From NCBI GenBank assembly GCA_024696615.1, contig JAILGS010000079.1, forward strand, positions 1-64,000: a DNA stretch of 64,000 nucleotides, in the 5' to 3' direction. The position numbers were made by a program, and so were the translations under genes. Below, in pieces: positions 22,695 to 41,750 of the stretch (its first letter is position 1; every line of letters begins with the position of its first letter). The stretch comes from Lachnospiraceae bacterium (lineage in GTDB: Bacteria > Bacillota > Clostridia > Lachnospirales > Lachnospiraceae). The notes beneath the pieces are model-generated. The model made no database searches, had not been told where the DNA came from, and worked only from the letters and a program-made list of their open reading frames with translations.

Positions 22695-24251
22695 TTATTT
22701 TGGCCATTCCGCTTCTAAGCGAATGATCAGGGATCGAATGCGTCGTAAATACCGCTCCCGGTATACGCCGTCCACGCCTAAGCGCTCCGCCTGACGCAGA
22801 TATCCCTCTTGAAATACATGGACAACCTGGGGCTGGGTGGTGCGTAACACCTTCACCGGATGAGTAATTCCCGTGACTGCCGCATAATGATCCCCGGCAA
22901 TTAATATATTTCTAGGCATTTCTCCACTCTGAATCACAGGGTGATAGTTGGGATAGCGCCGTATTAACTGAAAGATATTTTCCAAATGTTTTACATAAAC
23001 CTTGGGGGTATATAGCGGAATTGCATATCCCTCCGTCGGTGTTCCTAAAATATTCAACCGGCCTTTCAGGATATTCTCCGGTTCTTCCAGCATGATCATG
23101 TCATAATAGTCCCAACCATGCTCCAAATTCCGAATTAAGGCCTGGTAGCTCTCCTTGATGGCCGAAAAATTGGCCGCAGAGGTCTGAATCTTGGACTCTT
23201 TCATTAACAAGTCCACCACCTCCGGTGGCATGGTGTTCGGAGAAAGTCCCCAGGAACACTGATAATGATCATCTTCCATGCGATAATAGTCCATGAGCAT
23301 CCGGTCATAATCTCTGGCATCCTCAAAGACTTCCATAGCTGGCCGGCAAACCTTCATGATCTCTTTAAATTCAGTAAGGGTGGCCTCTATGAATTTCTCA
23401 TTTTTAGAAAATAACGTATATTCACTCTGTCCCTCAGCCCCCACGGATACGGAGGAAAGTGCTGCCACTCCCGGGCATACCATCAGGGTACGCTGTAACA
23501 AATGATCCCGCATACGAGGGTAATAATAGGACTCCACCTGACCGGTTAAGTATCTTGGAAGCCATCTGGACATGACATCCGTAACATCATCTAAGTTATA
23601 GGTTGGTGGAAAAATCTGGATAATACGATGTCCCCGCTGCAGGGCCTGATTCACAAAGCCCACACCCTGGGAGGTTTCATTGTAATTCTGGAAAAACCAA
23701 TCCAGTCCCCCTTCCAACATAAAATAGATGGTGGTGGGTTCCTTTAAAGCCGCAATGGACTCTACAAAATGTCGAAAAGAAACTTTCTTCTGTTCATCTC
23801 CATAAAAAATCGGAATCAGATTCTCATTAGAAGAACTTCCCCTTTCTAATGCTCCATCACTCCAATAGCGATTGCTGGCAGCTAATAAAAGCTCGGCATC
23901 CTCATCCTCCGTGGCCACAATCTGTTCCATGCCCCGTAGGAATTCGTCCACTCCCATGGGCTTATCCATTAACCAGTCCGCAATCATCTCCGCCATGCCA
24001 TCCATGGACTCCGGTGGAATCTTACTGCGGCCAATCATATCTACTAAGGCCTGAATCTGATAATCGGATAGACAGTGCTTGGCAAAGACTGCGGATAGAT
24101 TATTCACGGAATTCTTGTTCCTTGGAAGTTTTCTTCGTCCGGTTCGAAAGAGGCTAATTAATGATGCATCCACATTGAGCTCATTCGCTAGAGCTTTATT
24201 ACTCATATTGGTGATATCCATGAGATAACACAATTTATCTTTAAACTCCAT
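22695..24251 (-). CDS. XRE-type helix-turn-helix protein with large unknown domain
   Basis: 518 residues. Roughly residues 1-60 form an HTH (NKALANELNVDASLISLFRTGRRKLPRN). The remaining 440 residues are a soluble domain I do not recognise, with conspicuous aromatic motifs (QIFPPTYNLDDVTD, RWLPRYLTGQVESYYYPRMRD, RTLMVCPGVAALSS). There is no membrane helix. The ORF track starts at a GTG two codons upstream; ATG at 24251 is preferred because AAGGAG lies 5 nt before it. It sits between the TPR protein gene and pyrF, with a hairpin directly upstream. A transcription regulator with an effector-binding domain is one possibility. Confidence 0.7.
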   Translation of the reverse strand: MEFKDKLCYLMDITNMSNKALANELNVDASLISLFRTGRRKLPRNKNSVNNLSAVFAKHCLSDYQIQALVDMIGRSKIPPESMDGMAEMIADWLMDKPMGVDEFLRGMEQIVATEDEDAELLLAASNRYWSDGALERGSSSNENLIPIFYGDEQKKVSFRHFVESIAALKEPTTIYFMLEGGLDWFFQNYNETSQGVGFVNQALQRGHRIIQIFPPTYNLDDVTDVMSRWLPRYLTGQVESYYYPRMRDHLLQRTLMVCPGVAALSSVSVGAEGQSEYTLFSKNEKFIEATLTEFKEIMKVCRPAMEVFEDARDYDRMLMDYYRMEDDHYQCSWGLSPNTMPPEVVDLLMKESKIQTSAANFSAIKESYQALIRNLEHGWDYYDMIMLEEPENILKGRLNILGTPTEGYAIPLYTPKVYVKHLENIFQLIRRYPNYHPVIQSGEMPRNILIAGDHYAAVTGITHPVKVLRTTQPQVVHVFQEGYLRQAERLGVDGVYRERYLRRIRSLIIRLEAEWPK

Positions 24252-24272
24252 CCACACTCCTTACTCAAAATT

Positions 24273-31921: not shown

Positions 31922-33475
31922 TTACTTCTCGATGAAATCCACGTTCTTAGCAATAATATCTTCGCCCTCGCAACCTTCCACCTTCACATTCTTTAATACT
32001 AATTTCTTCGCATTTAAAGCAAAGATACCGGCCTTGCAGCTTTCCTTACATTCCGTCATCATGGCTGCAACACCACTCTTAGCATCCTCGGCATAGGTCA
32101 CATGAATATTTTCAAATGTTAAACATTCAATCTTATTCTCTGGCAGACCCGTAATATAAGCAGCTGCTACGTGGCAGTTCTTCGCTTCAATATTCTTGAA
32201 AGTGAGGCGCTTAATACTTGGAGTACGATCATCCACTGGATATGGCTCCATACTACCCACATAATCCGTACGTCCGTCCGGATCACAGAAGTAGAAGCTA
32301 TTTACTACAAATGGAGTCATTACCTGATCCATATCAATATTCTCAAAAGTAATCTGGTCTAAGATGGAACGCTCTCCACGACCACGTCTTGTCTTCACAC
32401 GAAGACCACGGTCCGTATGAATAAACTGGCAATCCTTGATGGTGATATTCTTCACACCTGCAGCAATCTCACTACCAACGGTTACAGAACCATGACCATC
32501 ACGCATACAACAGTTACGAATTAACATATTCTGCATTGGGATTCCAAGCTTCTTAGCCATGTAGATCTTTCCACTCTTTAAAGCGATACAGTCATCACCA
32601 ACGGAGATGTATGCACCGATTACTTCCACATGATTACAGCTTTCCGGATCCAAACCATCCGTATTATGAGAATTGAATGGATTCTGAATCTTAATATCAA
32701 TAAATCTTAAATTCTCGGAAAAATATGGATGCAGGGTCCAAGATGGGGAATTCTTCACCGTAATACCCTGTAATACCACATTTTTACAATGGCTAATGAA
32801 TACCAGACGAGGTCTCCAGGCAATCTTACGGATCTTTGGCTCAAACCACCAATTATCAAAATCCGCACATCCATCAATCACGCCTTCACCGGTAATGGTG
32901 ATATTTTCCGCATTAATGGCAGTAATAATGCCTGAGAAAGTATCCAGTGGATTGCCTTCCCAAGTTCCTAGATTGTACTCATCCGTCTCATCATAGGTAT
33001 CGATGGTACCCGGAAAGATTGGGAATTTGGTACGATCCGTAAATGCGGATAAAGTAGCACCCTTAGCAAGTTCCAAGGTAATATCACTCTTTAAGAATAC
33101 GGAAACAATCTTATACGTTCCTGCCGGAACAAGAATACGGCTATTCTTAGGACATGCCATAATAGCAGCCTGAATAGCATTGGTATCATCATGTTCTCCA
33201 TCACCCTGAGCACCGAAATCCCGTACATTCAATGTGACATACTGGGAATCCGTATGCACCTTTAATGGAGCCACATCTTCGCCTTCATATTCCACCGTAA
33301 TTTCATAATCCGTATCCGGCTTTAAATCATATAAAGAGGAAATCACATGATTGTGATTGGCCTTCAGCTCTCCATTGGCATAGATTTTATATTCCTTCTC
33401 GGTATAATACTTTCCAGCCTCTGTAAGTTCTACGACAACGCATCTTGCGTTCTGAAATACTAATTTTAACTCCAT
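31922..33475 (-). CDS. GH28 polygalacturonase, cytoplasmic exo-type
   Basis: 517 residues: an N-terminal fibronectin-III-like domain (about 1-78) and a right-handed beta-helix GH28 domain. The family motifs are present: NTDGLDPESC, GDDCIALKSG, GHGSVTVGS and RGLRVKT (the family's RIK). No signal peptide is present, so it should hydrolyse imported oligogalacturonides. FnIII-headed GH28 enzymes are often exo-acting, which fits. AGGAGGCAGAG precedes the ATG and overlaps the stop of the GH105-like gene 9 bp upstream. Confidence 0.93.
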   Translation of the reverse strand: MELKLVFQNARCVVVELTEAGKYYTEKEYKIYANGELKANHNHVISSLYDLKPDTDYEITVEYEGEDVAPLKVHTDSQYVTLNVRDFGAQGDGEHDDTNAIQAAIMACPKNSRILVPAGTYKIVSVFLKSDITLELAKGATLSAFTDRTKFPIFPGTIDTYDETDEYNLGTWEGNPLDTFSGIITAINAENITITGEGVIDGCADFDNWWFEPKIRKIAWRPRLVFISHCKNVVLQGITVKNSPSWTLHPYFSENLRFIDIKIQNPFNSHNTDGLDPESCNHVEVIGAYISVGDDCIALKSGKIYMAKKLGIPMQNMLIRNCCMRDGHGSVTVGSEIAAGVKNITIKDCQFIHTDRGLRVKTRRGRGERSILDQITFENIDMDQVMTPFVVNSFYFCDPDGRTDYVGSMEPYPVDDRTPSIKRLTFKNIEAKNCHVAAAYITGLPENKIECLTFENIHVTYAEDAKSGVAAMMTECKESCKAGIFALNAKKLVLKNVKVEGCEGEDIIAKNVDFIEK

Positions 33476-33484
33476 CTCTGCCTC

Positions 33485-34213
33485 CTAGCGTTCCTTTTCG
33501 GTTAATAATAATGATACTGCACCCTTATTTAAGCCCTTTTCCTCTAAGGATTCGCATACGGACTGATGCATTGCATTACCGATTGCCTCATACTTTTCGG
33601 AAAGAATTACCTTCATACGGCATGCCTTTAAGATGGCATAGGCAACCAAAGCCTTGCTGCTGGTATCTAATTCATTCTTCTCATATGCTTCTAAATTCGT
33701 CTTTAAGGTCTTCTTAAAGAGCACCTTTAAAGCATCATAATATTCATAAACTGCCTGATCCACAGAAGCAATTCCTTCAATCAAAGCAACTCCATACAGT
33801 GGAAGGTAGAGACCCTCTTTTCCATCCATGGACTCATACGCTTCTAACATCTGCTTATAATGGCCCTTACCGCCAATCACCGTATCATACTTGGTATAGA
33901 ATGTAAGGAGCATTGGATCTAAGCTTCCCCCGGCAAGATCCGCATCCATAATTTCTTTTAATCCCTTGAGACGTTCCTTCATTTCTGCTTCATCATTATC
34001 AAGTCGATAGAAACATGCCACTGCCGGGAATCTGCAGGTTACTGGAATCTGGCGTAATAAATTGTCCAATACTCTCACAGAATTCTCACGATCATGATGG
34101 TTGGAAGCAATGCCCATAGCCATCAGTAATAGCGCATTGGAGCTACTCCAGCTATCCTGCTCCTCAATATTAATGCTTTCAATCGCATCTCGAATAAAAT
34201 TCTCAGTCTTCAC
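33485..34213 (-). CDS. GH105/GH88-like helical protein, possibly degenerate
   Basis: 242 residues, all-helical, starting at GTG with AAAGGAGAGTTGTT upstream. Segments such as YTKYDTVIGGKGHYKQMLEAYESMDG and VAYAILKACRMKVI resemble parts of the alpha/alpha barrel of unsaturated glucuronyl hydrolases, which are usually about 370 residues. The protein is therefore short by a third, and the usual catalytic Asp-rich segments were not seen. Whether it is an active enzyme, a remnant or a separate small family is open. It sits between GH43 and GH28 in one run. Confidence 0.6.
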   Translation of the reverse strand: MKTENFIRDAIESINIEEQDSWSSSNALLLMAMGIASNHHDRENSVRVLDNLLRQIPVTCRFPAVACFYRLDNDEAEMKERLKGLKEIMDADLAGGSLDPMLLTFYTKYDTVIGGKGHYKQMLEAYESMDGKEGLYLPLYGVALIEGIASVDQAVYEYYDALKVLFKKTLKTNLEAYEKNELDTSSKALVAYAILKACRMKVILSEKYEAIGNAMHQSVCESLEEKGLNKGAVSLLLTEKER

Positions 34214-34265: not shown

Positions 34266-36197
34266 TTAATGCTGTAAACCTTCATAGTTCCAGCCATGAA
34301 AATGTGCGATCATCCGGTGTGCATAAAGCCCCACCATGGCGCCCGTAAAGCGCTTTCCCATCTTAATACCCTCATCACAAAGATAATATACATTCTCTAA
34401 GCGATGTAACAGACGCTTTTGTTCTCCTTCCATCAGATAAAAGTCCCGAACAAAACCATGGGTTTCAATGGCAAGGGATACATCTTCCTTCTCCTGGATC
34501 CTCTTGGCTTCCCAGAAGCTCGTCTTCTTATCCTCGCCAATCTGTTCCTGGATTCCAAGATAGGTCTTCCCCTGTTCCACAAAACAGCCAAAGGTAAGAT
34601 AGGTATTCTCATCATAATAACAGGTAAGTCCGGCGCTACCGCCCTCCACCAATTGATCCAGGGATACCTTCACCTGCACTTTAAAATCTAAATCCGACTG
34701 TCTTCGCACATAGACACTCCGGCAAAGCACCTGATGCAAATCTTCTTCATATCCTTTGATTGTTATATCATCATTTAATCTCTCGATAGTTCCTGGTCTT
34801 GGAGCTCTTGGAGTCATCCATGCCAGGGCATCATCCAGATTCTTTTGGGCAATCTCCTGCAACATATGAGGATCTTGACCGGTAATTCCGTTGAGACGCA
34901 TTTGCTCAGATACGGAATATGGCGCCTTCTGAATTACGCTTGGTCCATGTAAGCCATTGACTATTGGCCAGCCATCCGCCGTCCAGGTCATTGGATCTAA
35001 GCAAGTTTCACGCCCCATTAAAGTGTACTTTCCGTCCACCGGTCTTGCGGCAAGATAGGCCATATACCAGCGTCCATCCGGAGTATCCACCGGCATACCG
35101 TGTCCGGAATGAGTAATGGTCTGGGCATCATCCCACTGCCGAAGGATTGGATTATAAGGGCATGGCTCATATAATCCCATTAATTCCTTGGAGCGCTGTA
35201 CCGTAACCCGGTGTCCCTCACCGGTGCCGCCTTCCGCTAAGAAGAGGTAGTAATAACCGTCCTTCTTTAGCAAATGTGGTCCCTCGGGAGCACGCTTCTG
35301 ATCCCCATAAAACAGTAGGGTTGCCGGAGAAATCTGCTTAGTTAAATCACGACTTAATTCAAGGATTCTTGCTCCTCGATTTAATAACATATATACTCGT
35401 CCATCATCATCCCAAAAGATGGATGGATCGATGCCGTCCTCTTCAATCCAAGAAGGAGCACTATAAGGTCCTTCCGGACGATCCGACGTAACAATCATCT
35501 GACGACGAAATACTCGTCCCGTATCATTTAAACGATAGGTAGCAGTAATTGCAAACTTTCCCTCATGATAACTAATATCCGCAGCCCAGAAGCCTCGTCC
35601 GCCCTCTAAGCTGTCAAGATCCACATAATCGGGATTGGTGACTGCATAACCAATAATCTTCCAATGAATCAAGTCCACCGAATGGGAAATAGGAATACAT
35701 GGGAAGAAAATAAAGGAGGAATTCACCATATAATAGTCATTTCCTACACGAATAATGGAAGGGTCCGGAAACATACCGCTTCGGATTGGATTATGATAGC
35801 TATCCTCGTAGGTAAATCCCACATAATCCTCTAAATAGGCAAGGATTTCAGGATGAGCATCTTCCCTGGACTTCGCAAGATCGAAAGAAGTCACTAAATC
35901 CACATCCCCATCACAAGGATTCATTCCCACGCGTTCCACCAGATACTTTACACTATCTAATACTCCACTCTCCACCGCATAGTGAAGGATGTTTCGCTGC
36001 TTCAAATCCCGCAGATTCATGCTGGCACGGGAATATTCCACGATATATTTTACAATGGCAAAACCACCATCTCTAGCGCCAAGAAATGCATAAGGGATCC
36101 CATTCTCATCCACAGCATTAATTCCGTTGGGATCAAGAATTAATAACTCTTTCACATCCTCTAAAGATTGCCTTGCAAATGCTTCTAATAAATCCAT
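34266..36197 (-). CDS. Ankyrin-like domain fused to GH43 glycosidase
   Basis: 643 residues. Residues 1-125 read as ankyrin-type repeats (LEAFARQSLEDVKELLILDPNGINAVDE, RNILHYAVESGVLDSVKYLVERVG). The five-bladed GH43 domain follows from about 134, with the catalytic Asp145 (FPDPSI), Asp257 (DGIDPSIFWD) and Glu305 (PEGPHLL). A C-terminal beta-sandwich of about 180 residues resembles the extra domain of XynD/beta-xylosidase-type GH43 proteins. No signal peptide. Activity is probably on arabinan, xylan or galactan side chains of pectin. GGGTGGGAAGACGAT precedes the ATG. It lies between CE12 and the GH105-like gene. The ankyrin-like part at the N-terminus is unusual for this family. Confidence 0.85.
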   Translation of the reverse strand: MDLLEAFARQSLEDVKELLILDPNGINAVDENGIPYAFLGARDGGFAIVKYIVEYSRASMNLRDLKQRNILHYAVESGVLDSVKYLVERVGMNPCDGDVDLVTSFDLAKSREDAHPEILAYLEDYVGFTYEDSYHNPIRSGMFPDPSIIRVGNDYYMVNSSFIFFPCIPISHSVDLIHWKIIGYAVTNPDYVDLDSLEGGRGFWAADISYHEGKFAITATYRLNDTGRVFRRQMIVTSDRPEGPYSAPSWIEEDGIDPSIFWDDDGRVYMLLNRGARILELSRDLTKQISPATLLFYGDQKRAPEGPHLLKKDGYYYLFLAEGGTGEGHRVTVQRSKELMGLYEPCPYNPILRQWDDAQTITHSGHGMPVDTPDGRWYMAYLAARPVDGKYTLMGRETCLDPMTWTADGWPIVNGLHGPSVIQKAPYSVSEQMRLNGITGQDPHMLQEIAQKNLDDALAWMTPRAPRPGTIERLNDDITIKGYEEDLHQVLCRSVYVRRQSDLDFKVQVKVSLDQLVEGGSAGLTCYYDENTYLTFGCFVEQGKTYLGIQEQIGEDKKTSFWEAKRIQEKEDVSLAIETHGFVRDFYLMEGEQKRLLHRLENVYYLCDEGIKMGKRFTGAMVGLYAHRMIAHFHGWNYEGLQH

Positions 36198-36296: not shown

Positions 36297-37043
36297 TTAT
36301 TGTACCTTGTTATCTCCGTGGAAATCCACTAAGAGGGAAGGATCTTCTAAGTCCGATTCAGGGTCCACAAGCATCTCCCCATAGACACCACCAATCTTCT
36401 TAAGCTCTTCTGCCACTAAACCGGAGAAGACATATGCCCCCTCATACTTTAAGTGGGTATTATCTTCTTTTCCATCTGGGAAATTAGGATATTCCCCTGC
36501 AGGTACATGTACAAACCAGTCCTTACTCTTCTCAAAACCTGCTTCTTCAATCTTCTTCTTAGAAAGTGTAGTAAGATCCACTACCGGAACATCCAATTCC
36601 TTGGCCAATGCAATCATTGCATCCGGATAATCCAAATGTGTTCCTTCCTTTAAGGTCTTATGATCCTCTTCAAATACTCTACGATATAAAGGAGTAATTA
36701 ACAGTGGATATGCACCATGACTTCTTGCTACATCCACCATCTTCTTTAAATTCTCCTGGTAATCTCCAAAACTCTTCGTACCACGCTTTGGATCCGGCTT
36801 CTCATCATTATGACCGAACTGAATAAATAAATAATCCCCTGCACCAATGGCCTGATCGATCAAGTCAAGACGCCCCTCATCGATGAAACTCTTGGTACTT
36901 CTACCATTCTCAGAATAGTTCTCAACACGATAAGTTCTCTTTAAATATAGTCCAAATGCTTGTCCCATTCCAGTCTGTGGGAAGCTCATATAAAAATTCT
37001 GCTTTACGGTAGAATCACCGGCCCAAAAAATTCTTTTTGCCAT
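36297..37043 (-). CDS. Rhamnogalacturonan acetylesterase-like SGNH hydrolase (CE12)
   Basis: 248 residues, cytoplasmic. The SGNH blocks are clear: nucleophile block FWAGDSTVKQN, block III FGHNDEKPD, block V DNTHLKYEGA. This set with GDST rather than GDSL is typical of CE12 enzymes that remove acetyl groups from rhamnogalacturonan. The ORF track starts eight codons earlier, but AGAAGGATTTTTAAG before MAKRIFWAGDST sets the start at 37043. First gene of the pectin run behind an extended -10 promoter, immediately after the importer terminator. Confidence 0.9.
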   Translation of the reverse strand: MAKRIFWAGDSTVKQNFYMSFPQTGMGQAFGLYLKRTYRVENYSENGRSTKSFIDEGRLDLIDQAIGAGDYLFIQFGHNDEKPDPKRGTKSFGDYQENLKKMVDVARSHGAYPLLITPLYRRVFEEDHKTLKEGTHLDYPDAMIALAKELDVPVVDLTTLSKKKIEEAGFEKSKDWFVHVPAGEYPNFPDGKEDNTHLKYEGAYVFSGLVAEELKKIGGVYGEMLVDPESDLEDPSLLVDFHGDNKVQ

Positions 37044-37104
37044 CTTAAAAATCCTTCTTTTATTCATAAATTTGTCCTATGGATTTCATCCCATAAGCCC
37101 CTTT

Positions 37105-38093: not shown

Positions 38094-39512
38094 TTATACA
38101 ATACCACGACCACGTACCTTCTTAGATGCATAATCACATATAAGAACTAATACGCAACCTACCAAGGACTTAAATAAACCAACCGCAGTCGTATAACCAT
38201 AGTTATTACCGCCGGAGAATGACATACGATAGATATAAGTCTGGATAACATCAGCAACAGAAATAACAGCATCGTTCATTAATACGAATACTGATTCGAA
38301 CAGGTTCATAACCTTCGCAAGGTTAAGAATGAATACTGTGATAATGGTGTTCGCAAGAGCAGGAAGAGTGATATATCTCATCTTGTTGAAACGGTTAGCA
38401 CCATCGATTTCAGCAGCTTCATATAATTCAGGGCTAATACCAGAAAGAGTAGCTAAGAAGAGGATGGTTCCCCAACCGGTATCTCTCCAGATATTAACGA
38501 TATAGTAAACACCTCTCCAGTGCTCAACACTACCCATGAAGTACACTGGTTCATTTACTAAATTAGCATTCATTAAGAAGGTATTAATCATACCTGCATC
38601 AGAGGTATCCAGTAACATACGGAAAATAGATGCAACTACTACCCATGACATAAAGTGAGGTAAGTAGATAATGGTCTGAACAGTCTTCTTAAACCAAATA
38701 TTAGTGATTTCATGAAGTAACAGAGAAATAATAACAGCCATACCAGTATTAAGAACTAACTTAATTACAGAAAGCTGTAATGTATTCCAGAATGCTCTCC
38801 AGAAATATGGATCCTTCGCAACCATACCTGCGAAATGCTTAATACCTACGTATACAGGTACTCTCTTATAATCGGTGAATGCATAACGAACACCGAGCAT
38901 TGGCCAGTAGTTAAAGATTGCGATAAATACAACAACAGGAATGAACATAACATAGAACCACTTGTGATATACCATCTTACTCCAAGTGGACTTGTTATTG
39001 GTCATATAACGAGTATCATATTCAACAGTCTTTCTAAATTTCAGGATATCAAAGAAACATCCTACAACAGCAATAATCAATCCAAGAACAACTACATAAG
39101 TACCAAGACCTACGGTATATACTGGATCTTCATTCATAAAAGAAGTTAACTGTGAAAATGTGATACCAAAAATAATTGCTGCAATAGCAGTGGTAATAAT
39201 GGAGAAAATCTCCTTCTTAAGAACAACAATAATGATAGTAGCAATTAAAGCCACCATGTACAGATACCAGAGAGTCTGATGATTCTGGTACTGATATCCA
39301 TCATTGTTCAGATAGCTCATATAACTGTATGCGTCAGCAACGTTTTCTGAATTCTGAACGAATGGAAGTAAACCGCCCAGGAATGCCATTACTGCACCTA
39401 CAATTGCAAGAACACGCACGTTCTTTGGTGGAACATACACTTTAGTTCCGCACTTAGGACAAAGCTTTGCATTTTTAGGCAATTCGGTATTACATGCCTT
39501 ACATTGTGCCAT
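38094..39512 (-). CDS. LplB-type permease with N-terminal zinc ribbon and extra helices
   Basis: 472 residues. Residues 4-21 form a zinc ribbon (CKACNTELPKNAKLCPKCG). Residues about 34-163 add four membrane helices with no match to permeases. From about 185 an LplB-type permease follows (YNYWPMLGV-like FNYWPMLGVRYAFTDYK) with the EAA loop YEAAEIDGANRFNKMRYITLP. Normal LplB proteins are about 300 residues, so about 170 are extra. The ORF track start is 7 codons upstream; AAGGGTAATCCA before MAQCKACN favours 39512. The second gene of the importer operon, separated from the binding protein by a terminator. Confidence 0.88.
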   Translation of the reverse strand: MAQCKACNTELPKNAKLCPKCGTKVYVPPKNVRVLAIVGAVMAFLGGLLPFVQNSENVADAYSYMSYLNNDGYQYQNHQTLWYLYMVALIATIIIVVLKKEIFSIITTAIAAIIFGITFSQLTSFMNEDPVYTVGLGTYVVVLGLIIAVVGCFFDILKFRKTVEYDTRYMTNNKSTWSKMVYHKWFYVMFIPVVVFIAIFNYWPMLGVRYAFTDYKRVPVYVGIKHFAGMVAKDPYFWRAFWNTLQLSVIKLVLNTGMAVIISLLLHEITNIWFKKTVQTIIYLPHFMSWVVVASIFRMLLDTSDAGMINTFLMNANLVNEPVYFMGSVEHWRGVYYIVNIWRDTGWGTILFLATLSGISPELYEAAEIDGANRFNKMRYITLPALANTIITVFILNLAKVMNLFESVFVLMNDAVISVADVIQTYIYRMSFSGGNNYGYTTAVGLFKSLVGCVLVLICDYASKKVRGRGIV

Positions 39513-39577
39513 TGGATTACCCTTCTTTCTCATAATATTTTGTGTTTTTTTGAACGTGCCGACTAGTGCACATTCAC

Positions 39578-39677: not shown

Positions 39678-41231
39678 TTACTTGTTAAGAGAATCTAAGC
39701 ACTCCTTAACAAGATCGCCAACTTCCTGCTCGTATCTTGCAAGACCATCTTCAGCAGAGATCTTTCCAAGGCAAACATCAGCGATTACAGACTTTCTTGC
39801 AGTCCAGATAGCAGCACTGTTATCTGTCATAGCATCAGTCATCTTGATAGAAGGTGCCATCTTAGATGCACTCTTGAATACGTTAGCAGCTTCCTGAGCA
39901 ATTGCAGGAGAACCTACGTCGATACCGATATCCTTACCATCGTTGAAGTCAGAAGCATACTCACCTAACTTTAACAGACCATCGATGTGGTTGTAAGTAG
40001 CGGAGTTACCAGTAGACTCAAGAGCGGTAAATGCGAATACGCCATTCTCATAGGTGTAGTGAGTACCATACTCCCAAAGAAGCTGGCAATCACGACCATC
40101 TAACTGCTTAGATAACCAGTACTCGAAGATTCCTTCTGGGTTCTCAGCATCTACAGTAATACACCACTGTGGAGCAATTCTGTTAAGATACTGACCAACT
40201 TCAGCGATTGGAGGAAGAGAAACGATTACTTCCTTATCAGCGCCATCGTAAAGAGCCTTCTTCTTAATATTAGTAGTTAAAGTGTTGCACCACTTACCAG
40301 CCCAGTATGTGAATACACCGAACTTATCTTCATAGTATAAGTCACGAGCTTCAGAAGTAGTACGATCAATGATCTGTGGATCAAGTACGCCATCTGCATA
40401 AGCCTTAGCAAGTCTTTCAAGTGCGCCCTTCATAGCATCCTCGCCGAAACCATCTACCCAAACGCCATCCTTTTCATAGAACTCTGGATAAGCATCCTGA
40501 TAGAATTCTGGAAGGTAGTTGATGTATGGAGCTTCGCCACCTACAAGACCAGCAGCAGAGATAACATAATCAGCGCCCTTAGCTTCCTTCATAGCAAGAA
40601 GGTCTGCATAGTACTCTTCCCAAGTAGTAGGAAGTGTGCTAATTCCTGCAGCATCTAACCAAGACTGCTTAATATATGTTACACAACCGTTACCAGAAAC
40701 TGGTGACCATCCGTAAAGATGATACTCTCCGTCTGGACCAACAACCTTAGAGTTTTCGAAAAGCTCAAGACCGAAATCGCTTACACGACCGGAATTCTTA
40801 ACTTCAGAATTCTCCCAAGCATCAGTCATATCCCAAAGATATCCTAACTGAGCATATGTTGCATAGTTACCAGAAGAAAGAAGAACTACATCTGGAAGAG
40901 ATCCAGAACCAGCACCGAATAATGTACCGATGTAATCTTTGTATCCTGAGTGATCAGGACGCTCCCACTCAGCCTCGATACCAGTTGCTTCAGCAAGTGC
41001 ATCGTAGAAGGCCTGTGCGTTGTCATCTTCCTTTACTACAGTACCATCACATGTTACAGTGATCTTAGAAGGCTTCTCGATTGCCTTCTCAGTTGTTGTT
41101 TCAGCAGCTGCTGCTGTGGTGTCGTTAGAACCAGATGCTGCAGTTGTTGCTGTAGAAGCATCGCTTCCGCCACAAGCAGCAAGTCCTAATACCATAGACA
41201 GAGCTAAAACAGATGAAACTAGTTTTTTCAT
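39678..41231 (-). CDS. Extracellular sugar-binding lipoprotein of the LplA type
   Basis: 517-residue solute-binding protein. It has a lipoprotein signal peptide MKKLVSSVLALSMVLGLAACG with the lipobox Cys, a Thr/Ala/Ser-rich spacer and then a large two-lobe binding domain, longer than classic MalE-type proteins and like LplA/YtcQ or alginate-oligosaccharide binders. The track ORF starts 16 codons upstream; AAGGAGGG before MKKL sets 41231. It leads the importer operon from the promoter at 41307-41335. The neighbouring pectin genes suggest oligogalacturonides or rhamnogalacturonan oligomers as cargo. Confidence 0.92.
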   Translation of the reverse strand: MKKLVSSVLALSMVLGLAACGGSDASTATTAASGSNDTTAAAAETTTEKAIEKPSKITVTCDGTVVKEDDNAQAFYDALAEATGIEAEWERPDHSGYKDYIGTLFGAGSGSLPDVVLLSSGNYATYAQLGYLWDMTDAWENSEVKNSGRVSDFGLELFENSKVVGPDGEYHLYGWSPVSGNGCVTYIKQSWLDAAGISTLPTTWEEYYADLLAMKEAKGADYVISAAGLVGGEAPYINYLPEFYQDAYPEFYEKDGVWVDGFGEDAMKGALERLAKAYADGVLDPQIIDRTTSEARDLYYEDKFGVFTYWAGKWCNTLTTNIKKKALYDGADKEVIVSLPPIAEVGQYLNRIAPQWCITVDAENPEGIFEYWLSKQLDGRDCQLLWEYGTHYTYENGVFAFTALESTGNSATYNHIDGLLKLGEYASDFNDGKDIGIDVGSPAIAQEAANVFKSASKMAPSIKMTDAMTDNSAAIWTARKSVIADVCLGKISAEDGLARYEQEVGDLVKECLDSLNK

Positions 41232-41750
41232 TTGAAATAAACCCTCCTTAATTGGTTTTTTGTGGGCTAGTCGACCCACACCTGAAATTATTCAGTGACA
41301 AGAGTTATATTATCATTTTTGTATGATTTTAACAAGTGTATTTTCCAAAAAATGTTACCAAATCTTGAACAAAACTTTAACAAGACTTTGGCATTCTCTC
41401 AACCAAGCCTTTTTCAGAGTGTAAGCGATTTCAATATTTTTTCAAATATTTTTCAGATTTTCATCCCTTTGGTACTTTTTTCGGTTCTATTCTTGTATAC
41501 AAGACCTAGTCATTATGTCCATATTTCCATATAAAAACCATCATTTTTTTGTAAAATTATCCACATTTACCCCCTTGGGATGTCCCAAAATCCCTATTTG
41601 TTGGTAAATTTTTCTACTCTTGTAAGTTTTGACGAGGAAGAACTTTCGTCTATTTTACTGATTTCTGGAAGATGTATTTTTTCCTAAGATATGATATGAT
41701 GTCCTTTAGTGACGCAACCAAGCGCTAAAACCTAACGAAAAGGAGTTCCC
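41232..41750. other. Divergent intergenic region of 519 bp
   Basis: No gene was found. It holds the binding-protein promoter, an inverted repeat TGTGGG-N8-CCCACA at 41261-41280 within its leader, and an AT-rich stretch. For the plus-strand PAP2 gene, a possible promoter is TTGACG-16-TATTTT at 41629-41656, with TATGAT boxes at 41690-41700 as an alternative. The length suggests binding sites for a regulator, but none was identified. Confidence 0.5.
41307..41335 (-). promoter_or_regulatory. Promoter of the sugar importer operon
   Basis: TTGTTA-17 bp-TAATAT on the minus strand; predicted start near 41300 and a leader of about 70 nt. Confidence 0.65.

Follow-up and report, generated by a model that had tools for sequence, protein, structure and literature searches.

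The gene at the centre of this analysis encodes a GH43 glycosidase with a true ankyrin stack at its N-terminus, and this fusion appears to be an old lineage trait that arose essentially once. A second, distinct GH43 enzyme, here called GH43-A, is often encoded directly upstream of it and in some relatives forms part of the same polypeptide. Comparisons of these sequences lead us to favor, tentatively, the idea that the ankyrin domain tethers GH43-A to enzymes of this type. Both parts of the protein are of known kinds; what appears to be new is that they are obligately fused and that the fusion is paired with GH43-A. Throughout, “the window” refers to the entire 64,000-nucleotide stretch of Lachnospiraceae DNA that was analyzed.

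Architecture of the Ank-GH43 enzyme

The enzyme is encoded by a single unbroken frame of 643 codons on the minus strand of the window. Its features are as follows:

34266..36197, minus strand: Ank-GH43-GH43_C2 gene, 643 aa; ATG at 36197, stop at 34266
35805..36197, minus strand: ankyrin domain, residues 1-131 (Pfam Ank_2, PDB ankyrins, AlphaFold helix pairs); repeats R1 1-33, R2 34-67, R3 68-101, R4/cap 102-131
34965..35798, minus strand: GH43 five-bladed propeller, catalytic, residues 134-411 (Pfam 5e-80, Foldseek 6ms3)
35763..35765, minus strand: catalytic Asp145, presumed general base; invariant in alignments of 26 and 63 homologues
35427..35429, minus strand: Asp257 in the motif DGIDPS, presumed pKa modulator; invariant in 26 homologues, at least 90% conserved in 63
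35283..35285, minus strand: Glu305 in the motif EGPH, presumed general acid; invariant in 26 homologues, at least 90% conserved in 63
34311..34826, minus strand: GH43_C2 beta-sandwich, residues 458-629 (Pfam 1e-21)

The initial annotation, made from the sequence alone, had proposed ankyrin-type repeats in the first 125 residues, and the existence of a true ankyrin stack is now confirmed. Pfam Ank_2 matches residues 7-94 with an E-value of 2.3e-8 and 34.9 bits, over a curated cut-off of 27.3, and the single-repeat Ank models score slightly below their own cut-offs. Natural and designed ankyrins in the PDB match residues 1-116 with E-values down to 5e-20. The AlphaFold model contains four helix-turn-helix pairs (3-8/12-21, 36-44/46-55, 70-77/80-90 and 104-109/116-126) at a spacing of about 34 residues (32-36), with pLDDT values of 93-98 in ten-residue blocks over residues 1-110. 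A 34-residue register can also be read from the sequence itself (V15/V49/V83; A38/H72; T103-A108 aligned to N69-A74). Only the extent of the domain had to be revised, as the four repeats continue to about residue 131. The notion that this region is a known GH43 accessory domain was rejected, given that ankyrin models alone match it in Pfam; its homologues reveal no such domain either.

Like the proteins that define the Pfam Ank_2, Ank_4 and Ank families, the domain is built of helix-turn-helix repeats of ~33-35 residues, and the TPLHxA-like motif of these families appears as RNILHYA and VTSFDLA. It differs from them in having only four repeats, in being fused to a glycosidase and in carrying an unusual conserved loop, YSRASMN. 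The draft genome from which the window derives (2.0 Mb, 105 contigs, 81% complete) contains no Ank_2 match besides this domain. Lachnospiraceae are not short of ankyrin proteins in general: an Ank_2 match of some kind was found in 37 of 150 genomes of the family, and many of these matches lie in genes other than Ank-GH43.

In the remainder of the protein, PF04616 matches with 269 bits against a cut-off of 32.2, and in a Foldseek search the model matches GH43 crystal structures, the best being BlXynB of Bacillus licheniformis (6ms3, E 4e-53, 41% identity). The three catalytic residues named in the initial annotation bear scrutiny as well, being invariant or nearly so among the homologues. D145 aligns to D15 of Geobacillus XynB3 (an offset of 130), and the D15G variant of XynB3 is represented by an active-site mutant structure entry. 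By profile, fold and catalytic Asp-Asp-Glu, the window enzyme is a member of GH43. No signal peptide is evident by eye in the sequence, and the enzyme is probably cytoplasmic.

BlXynB (PDB 6ms2/6ms3) is the best match to the window enzyme in both sequence (6.4e-120) and fold (TM 0.88 to target), and it likewise combines GH43 with GH43_C2, over residues 128-627 of the window protein. It has no ankyrin domain, and its 41% identity to that protein is comparable to the identity shown by the Ank-less sister clade described below (about 43%). Geobacillus XynB3, the Selenomonas xylosidase and BoGH43A/B share the propeller, the beta-sandwich and the catalytic Asp-Asp-Glu, but they are more distant (26-30% identity), lack an ankyrin domain and belong to xylan or xyloglucan pathways.

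Conservation was quantified over 90 sequences. The middle ankyrin repeats carry 2.8-2.9 bits per position, compared with 2.3 for the C2 domain and 3.6 for GH43. Near-fixed ankyrin residues include Y51, V53, E54, Y55, S59, N61, D64, L71, Y85, G91, D98, T103 and A108, some of which belong to the ordinary ankyrin core. Strongly conserved positions outside the generic repeat core include Y55, S56, A58, S59 and N61, in the loop that follows repeat 2; to our knowledge, positions Y55 to N61 form no part of the usual ankyrin consensus. This pattern fits a specific contact surface, which might face either a partner or the enzyme’s own domains. Repeat 1 is missing in some lineages: it is absent from L051, L056-L058, L148 and the tandem forms described below, leaving three repeats, and the alignment of these proteins to the window protein begins at about residue 29-41. 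A possible relation of this loss to fusion with GH43-A was considered: repeat 1 is lacking in the tandem forms, and also in others such as L051 and L056-L058.

A pectic oligosaccharide operon

The initial annotation placed the enzyme in a pathway for pectin oligomers, and the gene neighborhood bears this out. On the same strand of the window, the order is solute-binding protein, two permeases, CE12-like esterase, Ank-GH43, short GH105-like protein and GH28:

39678..41279, minus strand: extracellular solute-binding protein (Pfam SBP_bac_1 1.1e-11); near 60/98 loci
38094..39533, minus strand: PermA, sugar ABC permease; zinc ribbon at the N-terminus plus one additional membrane segment
37230..38078, minus strand: PermB, sugar ABC permease; protein cluster near 67/98 loci
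36297..37067, minus strand: GDSL esterase, CE12-like, upstream of Ank-GH43 (Pfam Lipase_GDSL_2 6.5e-11, NCBIfam PaeY partial match)
33485..34213, minus strand: short GH105/GH88-like protein, 242 aa, downstream of Ank-GH43
31922..33475, minus strand: GH28 polygalacturonase-like enzyme (Pfam 3.4e-42; NCBIfam PglA 3.5e-125, under cut-off)

In line with established pathway knowledge, we take this operon to serve the uptake of pectic oligosaccharides and their breakdown in the cytoplasm. Neighbors were counted on the same strand within 6 kb of 98 distinct Ank-GH43 loci, the flanks of many being incomplete. An ABC permease lies near 67 of these loci and a second permease near 62; the solute-binding protein is found near 60, the CE12-like GDSL esterase near 56, another GH43 near 42, a GH105/GH88-like protein near 31 and a GH28 enzyme near 27. 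A MatE-family exporter (34/98) and an ABC exporter (23/98) also occur nearby on the same strand, often downstream of Ank-GH43 (e.g., L076, L084, L088), which is odd for a sugar-uptake operon. The 242-aa GH105/GH88-like protein fills the slot that a longer GH105-like enzyme (about 290-400 aa) occupies in many relatives; the short form is retained in L114 (44%) and L093 (40%). Elsewhere in the window (22695-24257, minus strand) there is a 520-aa protein that has no Pfam match at an E-value of 0.01.

The ankyrin domain could in principle dock the enzyme onto another product of this operon, namely an ABC permease, CE12 or GH105, all of which are common neighbors. PermA deserves mention here. It is of the LplB type, with an extra membrane segment of ~130 aa and a zinc ribbon, CKACNTELPKNAKLCPKC, that matches Zn_Ribbon_1 slightly below the cut-off (E 4.5e-5). 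The permease extension occurs in 8 of 260 genomes of the family, and all eight also have Ank-GH43 or its Ank-less sister. However, the zinc-ribbon motif is present in 21 of 72 permeases of Ank-GH43 loci (that of the window and 20 others), and most Ank-GH43 loci lack a zinc-ribbon permease; such a permease also occurs in genomes that have the Ank-less sister enzyme alone, and no fusion of Ank-GH43 to a permease, CE12 or GH105 was seen. We consider such docking improbable. The earlier suggestion of docking through the ankyrin domain is kept in altered form, with GH43-A as the favored candidate; for permeases, which it had also named, the support is indirect and comes from the unusual zinc ribbon of PermA. 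The channelled pathway that it further envisaged is at this stage conjecture.

Distribution and origin of the fusion

The fusion is no peculiarity of one gene, and in this respect the initial annotation has to be amended. A search for the same arrangement in other Lachnospiraceae found it in 30 of 397 genomes of the family. Further, an alignment restricted to the ankyrin part served to scan 85,462 species genomes, and the best 80 of the 112 relatives obtained were retained. All 80 were in frame with GH43 (in three, the frame runs off the end of a contig), and no free-standing copy of this ankyrin type was found among them. Merging these with the loci of the genome survey and removing duplicates gave the 98 distinct loci, chiefly from Lachnospiraceae, plus Monoglobus. 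Named hosts include Lachnospira multipara, L. phytofermentans, Anaerocolumna aminovalerica and [Clostridium] fimetarium. A class-wide sample added nine genomes of one further family, which we take to be Monoglobaceae because the tree places a Monoglobus record among them. In a phylum-wide sample of 399 genomes, only Ank-less relatives were found outside the window’s family. Records titled Alistipes, Bacteroides, Bacillus and Thermoflexaceae may reflect mis-binning and were left out as evidence of spread.

The window’s genome is a fragmented draft, a circumstance in which an assembly or chance artefact might be suspected. The in-frame join recurs across the 98 loci, including those of named strains. 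The join is thus no assembly chimera, and we assign an artefact practically no chance of being the explanation.

A quick tree of the GH43 and C2 sequences was built with the ankyrin columns removed, and SH-aLRT values rather than bootstraps served as support. The Ank-bearing proteins form one group with 98% SH-aLRT (46 Ank rows and one Ank-less row on a long branch), and its supported sister clade consists of 13 Ank-less GH43s, whose identity to the window protein is about 43%. The one Ank-less row, L162, has a branch length of 2.21 and was regarded as unplaced. The topology suggests that the fusion arose essentially once and has long been a property of this lineage.

One might suppose that the ankyrin domain acts as a substrate-binding module that helps to hold the oligosaccharide. 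Its union with a catalytic domain in every locus seen and its conserved loop residues are compatible with such a function. Ankyrin repeats, however, are protein-binding modules, and we know of none that binds a glycan; the case is weak, and we deem this role very improbable.

GH43-A, a recurrent companion

GH43-A constitutes a separate GH43 clade with 100% support (14 sampled on the tree). In 41 Ank-GH43 loci, its gene is the immediate upstream neighbor in the same orientation, mostly within about 100 bp; Anaerocolumna aminovalerica DSM 1283 has one such adjacent pair (L120/L035). In L044, L046, L053 and L055, GH43-A makes up the N-terminal part of one fused chain with the window-type enzyme (GH43-B), giving proteins of 1126-1178 aa with the order GH43-C2-Ank-GH43-C2; lacking the first ankyrin repeat, these tandem forms have three repeats seated between the two enzymes. 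L048 resembles a broken copy of such a fusion, with one stop. The fused forms occur in at least three lineages, and the tree forces at least three changes between the fused and unfused states; therefore, either fusion took place repeatedly or an old fusion was repeatedly split.

The association extends to whole genomes. GH43-A is present in 26 of the 30 Ank-GH43 genomes and in 23 of the other 367 (Fisher p 3e-23, a value that ignores relatedness), a strong match being absent from four of the 30. In the window’s genome, GH43-A (49% identity) is a stand-alone gene of 535 aa on another contig (C69, 22721-24274), with no other sugar-degrading gene evident around it. All 11 genomes that carry only the Ank-less sister enzyme also carry GH43-A, and the enzyme pair must accordingly be older than the ankyrin domain or independent of it. 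The best PDB match of GH43-A is the bifunctional GH43-CE of Bacteroides eggerthii (6mly, 1.9e-61). This protein is likewise a fused sugar enzyme with two activities, but its GH43 is joined to an esterase and to neither an ankyrin domain nor a second GH43.

The role of the ankyrin domain

The most likely function of the ankyrin domain, in a judgment that falls short of confidence, is to tether GH43-A to the window-type enzyme. In this mechanism, a cytoplasmic, exo-acting GH43 would trim residues of the arabinose or xylose type from pectic oligosaccharides taken up by the cell, while its N-terminal ankyrin domain, a fixed part of the enzyme, would hold GH43-A, such that the two trimming activities might work side by side on one imported oligomer, perhaps to kinetic benefit. 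In a few relatives the tether would have become covalent, or would have been so in an ancestor and later been split. We favor this reading because the ankyrin domain is real and was invariably fused to GH43 among the best 80 of 112 relatives, because GH43-A adjoins it upstream in many loci and is N-terminally fused in four, and because GH43-A co-occurs with the fusion and is present in the window’s own genome. The importer, CE12, GH105 and GH28 of the operon, the conserved loop residues and the tandem model point in the same direction. For L044, a natural tandem of 1128 aa, the model reaches a pLDDT of 89.8 and a pTM of 0.76; this is more than we would expect of two unconnected halves and suggests a defined arrangement.

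Several facts weaken the tether. More than half of the loci, including that of the window, have no adjacent GH43-A, and the sister-clade genomes maintain the pair with no ankyrin domain at all. The co-occurrence may stem from common descent and a common diet of pectin; adjacent genes can fuse without selection for physical contact; and a pTM value is not a contact map.

The main rival, which is a plausible one, holds that the ankyrin domain binds no other protein and is instead an intramolecular or self-association element, packed rigidly on its own GH43, where it would shape the rim of the active site or an oligomer. The linker between the ankyrin domain and GH43 is fixed and very short, consisting of a few residues and ending ~11 residues ahead of the catalytic base, and N136-P137, immediately after the repeats, is invariant. 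Modeled with 63 natural homologues as input, the whole chain has a mean pLDDT of 87.5 and a pTM of 0.86, with high pLDDT in the ankyrin repeats as well as in most of the remainder. The constant company of this ankyrin type and this GH43 is as expected of a structural part, and the fusion is kept even where GH43-A lies elsewhere in the genome or was not detected. Such a role leaves unexplained, however, why the ankyrin domain of the fused forms sits exactly between GH43-A and GH43-B and why GH43-A is so frequently adjacent; moreover, the closest Ank-less relatives and the solved BlXynB manage without the domain. The data do not separate this role from the tether.

A more general form of the tether proposal is that, in pectin-using Clostridia, the ankyrin domain holds two different GH43s together as a cytoplasmic trimming complex, by covalent fusion in some species but non-covalently in the majority. 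We regard this extension as speculative and rather unlikely.

Significance

A search of openly accessible papers found no published account of an Ank-GH43 fusion or of its pairing with GH43-A, and no relevant paper that names BlXynB/6MS2 or ties a bacterial ankyrin to GH43 or beta-xylosidase.

Most discussion of ankyrin domains in bacteria concerns effectors that contain them or proteins that stand alone. The present ankyrin domain, in contrast, belongs invariably to one lineage of housekeeping glycosidases, found in gut bacteria that use pectin (Lachnospira, Monoglobus, Lachnoclostridium). Should it indeed tether GH43-A, the assembly would be a cytoplasmic analogue of the enzyme scaffolds known outside cells, one whose partner is named and whose hosts are in culture, and it would suggest a way of predicting which sugar linkages are trimmed together.
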